Assembly (NCBI RefSeq): GCF_000429865.1
Contig: NZ_AUCR01000010.1
Location: 1-64,000 of the forward strand
DNA: 64,000 bases
Direction: 5' to 3'
Origin: Cucumibacter marinus DSM 18995
Lineage (GTDB): Bacteria; Pseudomonadota; Alphaproteobacteria; Rhizobiales; Devosiaceae
Made by a program: the position numbers and the translations under genes. Positions 7,102 to 16,994 of this stretch are shown here, piece after piece. The notes below the pieces were generated by a model. It made no database searches and was not told where the DNA came from. It saw only the letters and a program-made list of their open reading frames with translations. The first letter of the stretch is position 1. The number at the start of each line of letters is the position of its first letter.

Positions 7102-7117
7102 CGTTTCCCGTGAAACA
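7102..7117. promoter_or_regulatory. parS-like centromere site
   Basis: CGTTTCCCGTGAAACA matches the bacterial parS consensus TGTTTCACGTGAAACA at 14 of 16 positions. It lies just downstream of parB, between convergent genes. Confidence 0.65.
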
Positions 7118-7238: not shown

Positions 7239-8120
7239 TTAGGAGCCCTGCAAAAGTCGGCAAATCGCATCGAGCTGCTCAAGTGTGCGATATTTGATCT
7301 CCACCTTGCCGCCGCGCTCCTTGTGGTCGATGCTGACTTTGAGACCCGTTGTATCACTCAACGTCTTCTCGAGCGCCAGGGTATCGGCAGATTTGGTCTC
7401 TGCCGCCCGGCCGCTTTCGCCGGTCTTTTTCTGTGCCGACATCTTCTGTTGCAGCACTTCGGCTTCGCGCACGCTCAGCCCGCCATCGACGATCCGCTTG
7501 GCCAGGGCTTCGGGATCGTCTGCCGTGATCAAGGTCCGCGCATGGCCGGCGGTCAACTCGCCTCTGGCCACATAGTCGCGCACCTTCTCGGGCAGCTTCA
7601 TGAGTCGAAGCGTATTGGCCACGTGACTCCGGCTCTTGCCAATCACCTGGGCCAGTTCGTTTTGTGAATAGCTGAACTGATCGACGAGCTGCTGGTAACC
7701 CTGGGCCTCTTCGAGCGGATTGAGATCGGCACGCTGGACGTTCTCGATGATCGCCAGCTCGAGTGCTTCGCGATCGTCGACATCGCGAATGATGACCGGC
7801 ACTTCGTGCAGGCCCGCCCGTTGCGATGCCCGCCAGCGCCGCTCCCCGGCGATGAGCTCGAACCGGTCCGGATCCTGGCGGCCCGGCCGCACCAGAAGCG
7901 GCTGCATCACCCCCTTCTCGCGGATTGATTCAGTCAGTTCATCGAGATTCTCAGCATCAAAATCGCGCCGCGGATTATTGGGGTTCGGCACGATGAATTC
8001 GACGGGCAGGCGCTTGACGCCGCTCCGGTCCGCAACCCGCGGCGCTTCCGCCGGTGCAACATCTCCGATAAGGGCGGCAAGGCCGCGCCCCAGGCGCTGA
8101 TTGGTCTTCTTCTCGTTCAT
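7239..8120 (-). CDS. parB: Chromosome-partitioning protein ParB
   Basis: ParB binds parS, uses CTP to slide along DNA and builds the centromere complex for origin segregation. This 293-residue protein has the ParA-interacting N-terminus (NQRLGRGLAALIGD), the ParB box with GERRWRA, an HTH (NELAQVIGKSRSHVANTLRL) and a C-terminal dimer domain. The ATG at 8120 matches the family N-terminus; an upstream TTG at 8141 is the alternative. It lies 42 bp downstream of parA. Confidence 0.95.
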   Translation of the reverse strand: MNEKKTNQRLGRGLAALIGDVAPAEAPRVADRSGVKRLPVEFIVPNPNNPRRDFDAENLDELTESIREKGVMQPLLVRPGRQDPDRFELIAGERRWRASQRAGLHEVPVIIRDVDDREALELAIIENVQRADLNPLEEAQGYQQLVDQFSYSQNELAQVIGKSRSHVANTLRLMKLPEKVRDYVARGELTAGHARTLITADDPEALAKRIVDGGLSVREAEVLQQKMSAQKKTGESGRAAETKSADTLALEKTLSDTTGLKVSIDHKERGGKVEIKYRTLEQLDAICRLLQGS

Positions 8121-8162
8121 GGTCTCACAGTCTTGCTGCAAACACTGTTACGGCCGCACTCA

Positions 8163-8963
8163 TCAAGCCGCGCGCAACTTCTTCTCACGCTTGATCACTT
8201 CGGTCGCGAGCCGAAGATAAGCCTGGCTACCCGCGCAATTGAGATCGTAGAGCAGCGCCGGCTTGCCATAGGAAGGCGCCTCGCTCAACCGCACATTGCG
8301 GGGAATAACCGTGTCATAAACCAGGCCGCCCATATGCGACTTCACATCGCTAAGCACCTGTTCTGAAAGGTTATTTCGCTGATCATACATGGTCATCACA
8401 ACGCCCTGGATATAAAGTGCGGGATTGAGCGCCGTCTTGATCTGCTCGACAGTCTGCAAAAGCTGGCTGAGCCCTTCAAGCGCAAAGAATTCGCATTGCA
8501 GCGGGACAAGCACCGCATCGGCCGCAGCCAGGGCATTGATTGTCAACAGATTGAGCGAAGGCGGGCAATCGATCAGGATATAGCTCAAACCCCGATCGTC
8601 GAAGCCGGCATCCCCTGCATTCTCCAGCGCGTTGCGCAGCCGGAAAGCACGATCCTTCTCATTGGCGATGGCCAGCTCGAGCCCCAGCAGATCCATGGTC
8701 GAGGGAATAATGCCGAGCTGCGGCACCTTGGTCTTCACCATGGCCTCCGCGATCGTCACATCGCCGGTCATGAGGTCATAGGCAGAATACTGCCTGGCAT
8801 CGCGCTCGATACCGATCCCCGTACTCGCATTGCCTTGCGGGTCGATGTCGATGATCAGAACGCGTTCGCCGATGGCGGCCAGCGCGGTCGCCAGATTGAT
8901 CGCTGTCGTGGTCTTGCCCACCCCGCCTTTCTGGTTGGCCAGGGTCAAAATTCGCGGCCGCAC
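8163..8963 (-). CDS. parA: Chromosome-partitioning ATPase ParA
   Basis: This 266-residue Walker-type ATPase forms the nucleoid gradient that pulls ParB-parS complexes. The deviant Walker A motif NQKGGVGKTTT lies at residues 10-20, and YILIDCPPSL is the Walker B region. The start is GTG at 8963, with GAGAGG 7 bp upstream. It lies in the rsmG-parA-parB run, the usual origin-proximal order. Confidence 0.96.
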   Translation of the reverse strand: MRPRILTLANQKGGVGKTTTAINLATALAAIGERVLIIDIDPQGNASTGIGIERDARQYSAYDLMTGDVTIAEAMVKTKVPQLGIIPSTMDLLGLELAIANEKDRAFRLRNALENAGDAGFDDRGLSYILIDCPPSLNLLTINALAAADAVLVPLQCEFFALEGLSQLLQTVEQIKTALNPALYIQGVVMTMYDQRNNLSEQVLSDVKSHMGGLVYDTVIPRNVRLSEAPSYGKPALLYDLNCAGSQAYLRLATEVIKREKKLRAA

Positions 8964-8987: not shown

Positions 8988-9629
8988 TTACGGCTGGCGG
9001 CGCAAATTTCGGATTTCGAGGATAACACTGCCAGCTTCGATCCTGCTCTCATGTTCTACCAGATCGAACTGGAAAGCTGAATCCACCGCGTCGATTTCTT
9101 GGCGATAATCCCGACCTTTATGCAGCAAGGCGGTTGTTTCAACGCTCCAGAACGGCTCGATATGGCCGAAAAGCGCCGGCAATGGCGCAAAAGCACGCGC
9201 CGTAATCAGGTCGGGTGGGGGCAGTTTCGCCGGGTCGACCGATTCGATTCGCTCGGCGATCGCTTCCAGCGAAACCCCCAGCACCCGGGCGTTTTGACGC
9301 AGAAATGAGGCCTTTCGCTTGACGCTGTCGATGGTAATGACACGCGTTTCAGGCCCACAGGCGAGACCGAGCGGCAGGGCCGGGAACCCGCCGCCGCTGC
9401 CAAAATCGAGAAGAACACCCGGTTTTCCGGCCAGAAGCAGCAGAATCTGGAGGCTGTCGGCAAAATGCCGATCCCAGAGCGAATCGAGTGTTTCACGTGA
9501 AACCAGGTTCTGCACAGCGTTCCAGCGCCGAATCAGGGCTTCATATTGGTGCAGACCCGAGATCACCGCATCAAGCGGCTGTGCCCAGTCAGGAAGCAGT
9601 GGTGCGATCAGCGTTTCACGTGAATCCAT
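8988..9629 (-). CDS. rsmG: 16S rRNA (guanine527-N7)-methyltransferase RsmG
   Basis: RsmG methylates G527 of 16S rRNA using S-adenosylmethionine. The 213-residue protein has the SAM-binding motif LLDFGSGGGFPALPLGL, and the family signature WNAVQNLVS near residue 37. The ATG at 9629 overlaps the mnmG stop by 1 bp (a GTG at 9632 is the alternative). Two parS-like sequences lie inside this gene, at 9489-9504 and 9612-9627. Its codons there spell VSRET and DSRET, so the centromere sites are embedded in coding sequence. Confidence 0.95.
   Translation of the reverse strand: MDSRETLIAPLLPDWAQPLDAVISGLHQYEALIRRWNAVQNLVSRETLDSLWDRHFADSLQILLLLAGKPGVLLDFGSGGGFPALPLGLACGPETRVITIDSVKRKASFLRQNARVLGVSLEAIAERIESVDPAKLPPPDLITARAFAPLPALFGHIEPFWSVETTALLHKGRDYRQEIDAVDSAFQFDLVEHESRIEAGSVILEIRNLRRQP
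9489..9504. promoter_or_regulatory. parS site inside rsmG
   Basis: TGTTTCACGTGAAACC matches the parS consensus at 15 of 16 positions, and its 14-bp core GTTTCACGTGAAAC is perfectly palindromic. It is the best parS in the window. Confidence 0.85.
9612..9627. promoter_or_regulatory. parS-like site at rsmG 5' end
   Basis: CGTTTCACGTGAATCC matches parS at 13 of 16 positions and keeps the central TTTCACGTGAA intact. Confidence 0.6.
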
Positions 9630-11567: not shown

Positions 11568-11583
11568 CGTTTCACGTGAATCC
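11568..11583. promoter_or_regulatory. parS-like site between mnmG and mnmE
   Basis: CGTTTCACGTGAATCC matches parS at 13 of 16 positions and is the same variant as at 9612. It is paired with a second site 27 bp away. Confidence 0.6.
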
Positions 11584-11594
11584 GCTCCTGCGGC

Positions 11595-11610
11595 CGTTTC
11601 ACGTGAATCT
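11595..11610. promoter_or_regulatory. parS-like site, second of a pair
   Basis: CGTTTCACGTGAATCT matches parS at 13 of 16 positions. Its centre lies 27 bp from that of the preceding site, and its edge overlaps the mnmE stop codon. Confidence 0.58.
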
Positions 11611-14839: not shown

Positions 14840-15901
14840 CTAGCGGCCCTTCACATGCTCGATCAGCGCTTCGACATGCGCAATCGGGGTTTGCGGCACG
14901 ATCCCGTGCCCGAGATTGAAGATATGCGGGCTCCCTTCGAAAGCCGAAAGGATCTCATCAGTTCGCTCAAGCATCTGTTTGCCCCCCGCAACAACCCGAA
15001 GCGGATCAAGATTGCCCTGCACACAGGCCAATGGGGATATCTCCCGGCGCGCAAACTCGAGCGGTACCGCATAGTCAAGCCCCACGGCATTCACGCCCGT
15101 CGCCTTGATATAGCCGGGGATCAACGGACCCGCGCCCCGCGGAAAACCGATAATCGGCGCATCCGGGATTTCGGCACGTACCGTGTCGATCACCCGCCGG
15201 GTCGGTTCAACGATCCAGCGAGCGAAAAAAGCCTCGTCGATATTGAGCGCCCAGCTTTCGAAGATCTGCACAACATCGGCGCCCGCCTTGAACTGACGGA
15301 TCAGATAATGCGCACTCGCCTCCACAATCATGTCGATCAGCCGGCCAAAGGTCTCGGGCTCGGAAAGCGCCAACAAACGAGCCGGGGCCTGATCGCTTGT
15401 GCCTCGGCCCGCCACCATATAGGTCGCCACTGTCCAGGGAGCGCCACAGAAACCGATCATGGTCTTTTCAGGGGGCAGCGCCGCTTTCACACGCTCAACC
15501 GTCTCATAGACCGGTCCAAGCGTCTTATCGATGCCATCCACACTCAGCCTGCCAATGGCATCAGCGCTGGTGACAGGATCGAGAACCGGCCCTTCTCCCT
15601 TTTCAAAAGCCACGTGCTGACCCAGCGCATCGGGAACCAGCAGAATGTCGGCGAACAGAATGGCCGCATCGAGATCAAAGCGCCTCAGGGGCTGAAGGGT
15701 GACCTCTGCCGCGAATTCGGGTGAATAGCACAACGACAGGAAATCGCCTGCCTTCTCCCGCACTTCCCGGTATTCGGGCAGATAGCGGCCCGCCTGGCGC
15801 ATGATCCACACCGGCGGCCGTGCCGCTACTTCCCCTCTCACGGCCTGAAGCAGGGGTTTGCGCGCTGCCGTCCGCGCCGTGTCTTCCAACGACCCGCTCA
15901 A
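14840..15901 (-). CDS. hemE: Uroporphyrinogen decarboxylase
   Basis: HemE decarboxylates uroporphyrinogen III to coproporphyrinogen III. The 353-residue protein has the signatures PPVWIMRQAGRYLPEYR and GFCGAPWTVATYMVAG. The start codon appears to be TTG at 15901: a strong AAGGAG stands 6 bp upstream, and no ATG or GTG fits between them. Its promoter must lie in the putative oriC segment, as for Caulobacter hemE. This gene is the last of the leftward block that runs away from the origin candidate. Confidence 0.95.
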   Translation of the reverse strand: MSGSLEDTARTAARKPLLQAVRGEVAARPPVWIMRQAGRYLPEYREVREKAGDFLSLCYSPEFAAEVTLQPLRRFDLDAAILFADILLVPDALGQHVAFEKGEGPVLDPVTSADAIGRLSVDGIDKTLGPVYETVERVKAALPPEKTMIGFCGAPWTVATYMVAGRGTSDQAPARLLALSEPETFGRLIDMIVEASAHYLIRQFKAGADVVQIFESWALNIDEAFFARWIVEPTRRVIDTVRAEIPDAPIIGFPRGAGPLIPGYIKATGVNAVGLDYAVPLEFARREISPLACVQGNLDPLRVVAGGKQMLERTDEILSAFEGSPHIFNLGHGIVPQTPIAHVEALIEHVKGR

Positions 15902-16059
15902 TCCACACTCCTTGGGGTAAAGGATTCTTGTTTATGAATCTGTTGTTGTTGTTTGGCTGTGTTTTGCATGAATTCCATCACGTCCACAACCGCATCCACC
16001 GCGGCATCTCGCCCGGCTTTCCGGTGGGTTTCGTTCAAAGGCCGTGCGCCGGCCACCCG

Positions 16060-16074
16060 TTAACAAGCCCTTAA
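16060..16074. promoter_or_regulatory. CtrA binding site (full consensus)
   Basis: TTAA-CAAGCCC-TTAA, followed by C, fits the CtrA consensus TTAA-N7-TTAA(C) exactly. In Caulobacter such sites in the origin repress replication. Confidence 0.7.
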
Positions 16075-16083
16075 CGGCAATGG

Positions 16084-16098
16084 TTACCGGGGCGTTAA
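16084..16098. promoter_or_regulatory. CtrA-like binding site
   Basis: TTAC-CGGGGCG-TTAA has one mismatch to TTAA-N7-TTAA and lies 24 bp from the first site. Confidence 0.55.
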
Positions 16099-16173
16099 CC
16101 ATTGGCCATGCCCGTGCATGGCGCGGGTATATCCGGGGGATAGCCTGTGCGCAGATGTGAACACAGCGGGTTG

Positions 16174-16188
16174 TTAACGATTCGCTAA
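16174..16188. promoter_or_regulatory. CtrA-like binding site with a GANTC inside
   Basis: TTAA-CGATTCG-CTAA has one mismatch to the consensus. Its spacer contains GATTC, a CcrM methylation target, which could couple methylation state to binding. Confidence 0.5.
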
Positions 16189-16280
16189 CTGTTCGGCGCG
16201 CTCGTCCCCAGGCCGTCACTGCTGTGGGCAAATCGACGGTTATCGGGCACAAATCAGGGACGCGTCCGGCCGGCGGCGGC

Positions 16281-16289
16281 TTATCCACC
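16281..16289 (+). promoter_or_regulatory. DnaA-box-like 9-mer
   Basis: TTATCCACC differs from the DnaA box TTATCCACA only at the last base. It is the only close match I found in the segment. Confidence 0.5.
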
Positions 16290-16358
16290 ATCCGTCCCCT
16301 TGGCGGCGAACAAACTGTGTGAAACAAGGCATTCCATACCCATGGCAGGACCCATTTC

Positions 16359-16994
16359 ATGAGTGCAAAACCCTTGCTGATCCTGGCCTCCAAGAGCCGG
16401 ACCCGGCTTGATTTGCTGGCCGGAGCGGGACTGACCGCGACCCCGGTTCCCGCCGATATCGACGAACGCGCCATCGAGGATCGCATGGGGGCCGCCGCAC
16501 CGCGCGACCATGCCATCGCGCTGGCCGAGGCCAAGGCTCTGGCCGTCAGCCAGATGCGCCCGGGCACCACCGTGATCGGCGCCGACCAGGTGCTCGATTG
16601 CGACGGTGAACGGTTCCACAAGCCGGAAAATCGGCAGCAGGCGGCCCGCAATCTCGAAAAACTGCGCGGGCGCACCCACCGTCTGACTGCGGCTGCCGCC
16701 CTGGCCGCGGATAATCAGATCCTGTGGTCCGCATCCGCCGAAGCACGGCTGACCATGCGCGATTTTACCCCGCAGGACCGCGATACGGTTCTCGATCTTG
16801 AGGGCGATGCCATCCTGTCGAGTGTGGGCGCCTATCGGCTGGAGGGCCCATCGATCCGTCTGTTCGAGGCGATCGACGGCGATTATTTCACCATTCTCGG
16901 CCTGCCCCTGCTGCCGCTGCTGGCCGCCCTGCGTCATCATGCGCCCAGGATCATGCAGACCGGTGCCTCCCCCAAAAAAGTCAGCACCTCATGA
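16359..16994 (+). CDS. maf: Maf-family nucleotide pyrophosphatase
   Basis: Maf proteins hydrolyse non-canonical or specific nucleoside triphosphates. This 211-residue protein begins with the family signature LILASKSRTRLDLL and has GADQVLDCDG. AGGA lies 9 bp upstream of the start. It is the first gene of the rightward block from the origin candidate and overlaps aroE by 4 bp. In many relatives the PPDK-regulatory gene ppsR (DUF299) precedes maf; here it is absent. Confidence 0.92.
   Translation: MSAKPLLILASKSRTRLDLLAGAGLTATPVPADIDERAIEDRMGAAAPRDHAIALAEAKALAVSQMRPGTTVIGADQVLDCDGERFHKPENRQQAARNLEKLRGRTHRLTAAAALAADNQILWSASAEARLTMRDFTPQDRDTVLDLEGDAILSSVGAYRLEGPSIRLFEAIDGDYFTILGLPLLPLLAALRHHAPRIMQTGASPKKVSTS

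Follow-up and report, generated by a model that had tools for sequence, protein, structure and literature searches.

The window analyzed here comprises 64,000 bases, that is, bases 1-64000 of contig C7 (212,273 bp) in a Cucumibacter marinus genome of 3.71 Mb (22 contigs, 99% complete). It contains a gene-free gap of 457 bp at which the direction of transcription changes, with the genes from parB to hemE running leftward and maf, aroE, coaE, and dnaQ running rightward. The strand switch at a gap between hemE and maf, which an earlier note on this DNA had pointed out, is borne out by the ORF list, and a motif search located all of the motifs named in that note within positions 15902-16358. The gap and the genes that define its setting are as follows.

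15902..16358, unstranded: hemE-maf intergenic region between the annotated flanking ORFs (457 bp), candidate oriC
14840..15901, minus strand: hemE, left flank, with a TTG start in the ORF list
16359..16994, plus strand: maf, right flank, PF02545 (Pfam)
7239..8141, minus strand: parB (Pfam ParB_N, HTH_ParB, and ParB_C)
8163..8963, minus strand: parA, an ORF syntenic in Devosia

Apart from ParB and Maf, gene names were assigned by reading the ORFs and are backed by synteny, and the ORF at 8163..8963 (minus strand) is one that we take to be parA. Among the matches listed, the best ones for HemE came from Maritalea, Pelagibacterium, and Devosia. In Devosia, the genes of the left end of the window are followed by FtsK and TrmD (names by reading), and candidates for both are located on contig C8, the left neighbor of C7 by synteny. 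The gap adjoins hemE inside a rho-mnmG-parB cluster, as is expected of a hemE-type oriC, and its GC content is 57% versus 63% for the window.

The gap was compared with those of related bacteria using the best 80 of 251 HemE loci, 50 of which carry maf upstream of hemE in divergent orientation. Eighteen of these 50 hemE-maf loci, picked by HemE similarity and title, constitute the family set; L008, a close relative without a maf match, was left out of the 18-locus counts. The hemE-maf gap measures about 409 to 476 bp in the 18 family loci (among the best 80 of 251), with gap ends taken from tblastn matches, such that a few hemE codons may be included. In all five loci tested that have a longer hemE-maf interval, the extra gene belongs to PF03618, the ppsR-type kinase/pyrophosphorylase. 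This domain was found in genomes G015 and G017 and is absent from C. marinus and from 14 of 14 family genomes searched. Thus, maf has presumably become the neighbor of hemE through the loss of ppsR, which accounts for the earlier, correct statement that maf stands here instead of ppsR. In Caulobacter, maf, aroE, and coaE presumably lie beyond ppsR. Oricola (G016) is also devoid of PF03618, and its hemE-maf gap (L023, 436 bp) contains no CtrA-type site at up to one mismatch. The loss in Oricola is apparently an independent event, and the loss of ppsR that made maf the neighbor apparently happened more than once.

CtrA-type sites, GANTC sites, and the AT-rich tract

Three CtrA-type sites, three GANTC sites, and an AT-rich tract were identified in the gap by motif search and from the AT peak.

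16060..16074, unstranded: perfect TTAA-N7-TTAA, CtrA-type site, with an aligned site in most relatives
16084..16098, unstranded: CtrA-type site with one mismatch, with an aligned site in relatives
16174..16188, unstranded: CtrA-type site with one mismatch, not clearly aligned in relatives
15923..15927, unstranded: GANTC, CcrM type
15936..15940, unstranded: GANTC, CcrM type
16179..16183, unstranded: GANTC within the third CtrA-like site
15918..15957, unstranded: AT-rich, T-rich tract with 3-bp periodicity and two GANTC sites, candidate unwinding element

To have three CtrA-type sites at up to one mismatch is rare, being reached by 2 of 5000 dinucleotide shuffles of this gap, and one perfect site was reached by 15 of 5000. 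Across the 18 family gaps, we counted 28 perfect TTAA-N7-TTAA sites, whereas shuffling gave 0.15 on average and never more than 2 in any of 300 sets; the remaining 348,501 bp of these loci contain none. A perfect site is present in 16/18 family gaps, a site at up to one mismatch in 18/18, and two or more of the latter in 17/18; the two Maritalea porphyrae strains have one-mismatch sites only. The one perfect and two near-perfect sites reported earlier are real, and the presence of several conserved TTAA-N7-TTAA sites is a feature of Cori-like origins.

Only three perfect CtrA-type sites occur in the 212-kb contig, and the two outside the gap lie together at 205.76-205.80 kb. We considered the stretch at 205.4-205.8 kb, which holds these two sites and the most AT-rich 300 bp of C7, as an origin and rejected it, because the two sites are located 99 bp upstream of a 1360-amino-acid frame that reads as adhesin/autotransporter-like, only one GANTC is near, and no parS-like sequence at up to one mismatch is present. 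In the stretch from 205.76 to 209.94 kb, the perfect CtrA-type sites are 26 bp apart, and two frames nearby read as tail-collar-like.

That a perfect pair of sites (205.76 kb) lies so close upstream of a long open frame is in keeping with another view of the gap, namely, that it is an origin whose CtrA sites act on hemE/maf transcription only and do not gate initiation. Work on Caulobacter also lends this view some weight, as removal of the CtrA sites from Cori disturbed the cell cycle only mildly under constant laboratory conditions, and promoter activation is one of the roles proposed for CtrA at Cori (PMC4468827). On the other hand, two CtrA-type sites occupy alignable places in most of the 19 gaps (C. 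marinus included), on the maf side of the conserved core described below, an arrangement that fits origin control without proving it. We consider a purely transcriptional role unlikely and favor control of the origin by CtrA.

Three GANTC sites in 457 bp are marginal for the C. marinus genome alone (Poisson P of 0.048). Nevertheless, the earlier count of three sites, one of them in a CtrA-like spacer, is correct, and the enrichment is strong across relatives: the 19 gaps have 10.0 GANTC per kb and the flanks of the 18 loci have 1.4 per kb, an approximately 7-fold difference, and 19/19 gaps contain at least one site no more than 70 bp to the left of the core. The genome encodes CtrA (428 bits versus a cut-off of 350), GcrA, and DnaA, and a 382-amino-acid frame encodes a RAMA-domain, CcrM-like candidate protein. 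GANTC sites together with a candidate CcrM-type methylase are a further Cori-like trait.

The AT-rich tract mentioned in the earlier note was also confirmed. The 50 bp from 15925 are 68% A+T, a value unmatched among the 50-mers of the window taken at 10-bp steps, and the high A+T content is limited to the part of the gap next to hemE, with 58% A+T in 15902-15990 versus 39% in the remainder. The tract at 15918-15957 may serve in unwinding.

A family-specific core and the DnaA boxes

When the gaps were aligned, the most conserved block appeared at the hemE side, consisting of a T-rich tract, CTGTGTTTTGC or a near form, AATT, and TCCACAA or a near form. This block was condensed into a 31-bp core pattern, listed here along with the only DnaA-box-like sequence at one mismatch in the gap.

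15959..15989, plus strand: core GTGTNTWG-N4-RATT-N10-CACAA, two divergent weak DnaA-box-like halves (alignment and pattern search)
16281..16289, plus strand: TTATCCACC, DnaA-box-like, one mismatch (motif search; position not conserved)

We searched 136 family genomes, none other of which belongs to the genus of C. marinus, and found the core pattern in 94 of them, representing 11/16 genera, never in more than one copy per genome; it is missing from the other 42. The reversed pattern, used as a control, gave 0 matches in the same 136 genomes. When 397 genomes sampled from the order were searched, all 17 matches fell among the 21 family members, with none in the 376 nonfamily genomes. The copy at 15959-15989 is the only one in C7 and C8, and wherever the locus is known the match lies beside hemE, as in Devosia ih3 (core at 1,966,181 and hemE at 1,966,286). 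Genomes grouped in one family with C. marinus have core positions that match the Devosia ih3 and Maritalea loci. The excluded relative L008 has no core (best match with 8 mismatches).

As to the nature of the core, its left half, TGTGTTTTG, is a poor DnaA box with 4 mismatches. A core-like layout (T-rich tract with GATTC, a TGTG half, and TCCACAA or a near form at 27 bp) is nonetheless present in four loci outside the family (L020, L021, L022, and L024), and there the halves are more box-like than in the family core. For this reason, we interpret the core as two weak DnaA boxes that have diverged and that border the presumed opening tract. It is possible, though we doubt it, that the core is instead the hemE promoter or a site for another protein, given its start 49 to 110 bp away from hemE in the gaps as extracted and the poor match of its left half to a DnaA box. 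The layout shared with the four nonfamily loci speaks against this, an argument limited by the box spacing in 41 nonfamily loci, for which 38 bp (9 loci) and not 27 bp is commonest. Since only 12/41 of these loci show a spacing of 26 to 28 bp, a fixed 27-bp spacing for all Alphaproteobacteria was rejected, and we regard it as a resemblance in a few Hyphomicrobiales. A more speculative and less likely possibility is that a family-specific module, GTGTTTTG-N4-AATT-N10-CACAA, might have replaced the usual hemE-proximal DnaA-box pair in Devosiaceae, that its reader might be a co-evolved DnaA or a second origin factor, and that it might be combined with gating by CtrA, which is missing in those members of the order that have been studied well.

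The TTATCCACC sequence singled out in the earlier note does exist at 16281-16289, but it has no conserved position in the family alignment, and a single copy is not beyond chance because 15 matches at up to one mismatch occur in 64 kb; the conserved element is the core at 15959-15989. The gap contains no perfect TTATNCACA box and one box with one mismatch, and thus no canonical DnaA-box cluster. We also applied the BUS rule, which calls for a DnaA box (up to 2 mismatches) within 16 bp of at least three NAN trios (PMC8287927). It yielded no match in the C. marinus gap on either strand, with a weaker second box left unscored; among the relatives, there was a plus-strand match in 5/18, none at the core, and a minus-strand match in 4/18. 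A BUS/DnaA-trio reading of the trio-like tract was rejected, as the published rule fails.

In addition to full dnaA, C. marinus (C9:61433-61627) and 14/14 relatives have another match to the C-terminal domain of DnaA, which binds the boxes. This further match lies mostly in frames of 123 to 222 amino acids, with one of 350; such a protein could compete for DnaA boxes. In Devosia aurantiaca (C1:661093-661299), the C-terminal domain of the main dnaA resides in a 173-amino-acid frame, compared with 516 to 609 for the best match in each of the other 13 relatives, perhaps due to a sequencing or assembly break.

parS, replichore polarity, and the place of the origin

To the left of the gap lies a cluster of parS sites, scored against a 14-bp sequence that we assume to be the parS consensus.

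9490..9503, unstranded: parS, perfect to the assumed consensus (motif search)
9613..9626, unstranded: parS-like, one mismatch (motif search)
11569..11582, unstranded: parS-like, one mismatch (motif search)
11596..11609, unstranded: parS-like, one mismatch (motif search)
7103..7116, unstranded: parS-like, one mismatch (motif search)

Seven matches at up to 2 mismatches were obtained versus 0.10 expected, and the sites are clustered at 7.1-11.6 kb, 4 to 9 kb from the gap. Those at 9490-9503, 9613-9626, and 11569-11609 fall in or at the ends of frames read as rsmG and mnmG.

Replichore polarity was then assessed with KOPS (GGGNAGGG), counted in window orientation in C. marinus and in 7/14 relatives chosen for long contigs. 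According to PMC2443382, the Azorhizobium origin was placed in the same setting by its conserved gene cluster, GC skew, and KOPS. In the eight genomes pooled, there are 37 plus and 137 minus KOPS left of hemE, 83 plus and 66 minus between hemE and dnaA, and 48 plus and 24 minus beyond dnaA. The left and middle segments differ strongly (P of 1.5e-10), whereas the middle and right ones do not (P of 0.14), at a resolution of tens of kilobases; the middle segment on its own gives a P of 0.19. These data indicated that pooled KOPS polarity changes at hemE and not at dnaA. In C. marinus alone, the counts are 8 plus and 27 minus on the left versus 24 plus and 13 minus on the right (Fisher P of 0.0004).

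The GC skew of C. marinus has a negative sign both before and after the gap, up to the end of C7, shows no sign change from C8 to C7, and stays negative after a crude gene-strand correction with crude ORF calls; it was discarded as an origin locator for this genome. The check by GC skew that the earlier note had suggested thus gave a divided answer. No minimum sits at the gap in C. marinus, but the skew does turn at hemE in both Maritalea species (M. porphyrae and M. myrionectae) and weakly in Devosia enhydra. No such turn is present in Devosia ih3, D. aurantiaca, and both Pelagibacterium genomes, and Devosia ih3 shows one skew sign in 18/20 samples round the chromosome. A set of 40 octamers trained on relatives for polarity gave 422 plus versus 509 minus right of the gap, following the skew and not KOPS. 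The missing turn could be due to an earlier inversion or to one replichore having little skew. Because hemE is indicated both by KOPS and by the skew of Maritalea, the skew of C. marinus was given less weight.

If the skew is taken at face value, the origin would lie elsewhere, near dnaA or further right, and the gap would be a CtrA/CcrM-controlled divergent hemE/maf promoter that sits beside parAB by old synteny. The negative skew right of the gap agrees with this, as do sampled sign changes at about +71 to +211 kb in D. aurantiaca and about +246 to +546 kb in Pelagibacterium xiamenense, and the KOPS between hemE and dnaA in the two Pelagibacterium genomes (9 plus and 17 minus) resemble the left side. 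The pooled KOPS change and the Maritalea and D. enhydra skew turns at hemE do not. Nor is the distance from hemE to dnaA constant: it varies from 51 to 162 kb, with dnaA on the maf side, in the 10/14 relatives that have both on one contig, and is about 106 kb in C. marinus, while the hemE-maf adjacency stays fixed. Moreover, a promoter would not usually, in our judgment, combine a family-wide single-copy element with a local AT peak.

A better DnaA-box cluster near dnaA, which the earlier note had named as evidence against the gap, was not clearly found. In 5/5 genomes, the 700 to 730 bp examined upstream of dnaA hold no perfect CtrA site and 0 or 1 DnaA box at up to one mismatch; one-mismatch CtrA sites occur in 3/5. 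The comparison covers five genomes because the P. xiamenense stretch has no dnaA match. In the C. marinus contig, however, a 500-bp stretch starting at 121,331, upstream of dnaA, contains two one-mismatch boxes, versus one in the gap. Three boxes lie within 500 bp from 194,123 of C7. We judged the region upstream of dnaA to be the weaker candidate on the five genomes, with its own two boxes from 121,331 standing against that judgment, and hold an origin outside the gap to be highly improbable.

Taken together, the conserved anatomy, the parS cluster, and the pooled KOPS make us confident that the hemE-maf gap is the chromosomal origin. The earlier reading of the gap as an oriC with CtrA and CcrM-type sites is thereby supported by the 18 family loci, the parS sites, and the KOPS change.

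Proposed initiation and comparison with known origins

Very probably, the gap represents a conserved origin of known type with lineage-specific anatomy. What is new is the family-wide conservation of CtrA and GANTC sites in a hemE-type origin of Hyphomicrobiales, together with the single-copy 31-bp core. Based on this arrangement, DnaA would assemble at the hemE-proximal core (15957-15989), starting from its weak boxes, and open the AT-rich stretch beside it (about 15918-15957); helicase loading would follow. By analogy with Cori as described in PMC4468827, phosphorylated CtrA on two to three TTAA-N7-TTAA sites at 16060-16188, 70 to 200 bp away, could block DnaA assembly in nonreplicating cells. 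CcrM methylation of GANTC in or near the opening tract may mark the replication state, and ParB at the parS sites 4 to 9 kb to the left would segregate the duplicated origin.

Among the matches listed, we found no paper on the origin or CtrA of Devosiaceae, with subscription papers mostly outside the search. With conserved CtrA sites in a hemE origin of Hyphomicrobiales, it becomes possible to test whether Sinorhizobium and Brucella lost an inherited control or whether the control was gained again. In addition, where GC skew fails in draft genomes of the family, the single-copy 31-bp element is a practical marker of oriC.

Comparisons with known origins rest on their descriptions in the papers cited. 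Cori of Caulobacter crescentus lies between hemE and ppsR and carries TTAA-N7-TTAA CtrA sites and weak DnaA boxes (PMC4468827, PMC1914354, and PMC10225481), and the gap resembles it in the hemE flank, the CtrA-type sites, and boxes that are weak instead of consensus. It differs from Cori in the loss of ppsR, with maf as the neighbor, in the family-specific 31-bp core, and in conserved CtrA sites on the maf side of that core.

Within the same order, the Sinorhizobium meliloti and Brucella origins share the conserved origin-linked gene cluster (PMC2443382). In S. meliloti, CtrA motifs and CtrA binding are stated to be absent from the origin (PMC4433202), and Brucella abortus CtrA is stated, citing earlier work, not to bind the origin (PMC2877005). 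In contrast, the family gaps described here have conserved CtrA-type sites.

Hyphomonas neptunium, of another lineage, is comparable in that a CtrA ChIP-seq peak is described next to its ori (PMC7200025). In four Hyphomonadaceae-labeled MAGs (L059, L062, L066, and L071), no CtrA-type site at up to one mismatch was found in the ppsR-hemE gap (4/4). Six Robiginitomaculum-labeled MAGs (L043, L045, L053, L054, L056, and L058) each have one perfect CtrA-type site at the ppsR end of that gap, and these sites may belong to the ppsR promoter and not to the origin.

Finally, the hemE origins of Wolbachia and Rickettsia, whose gap of about 400 bp has predicted CtrA and DnaA sites (PMC1914354), share the hemE flank with the C. 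marinus gap and differ in the neighbor (COG1253 or COG1806) and in their AT-rich genomes. We regard the hemE-maf gap as a lineage variant of the hemE-type origin.
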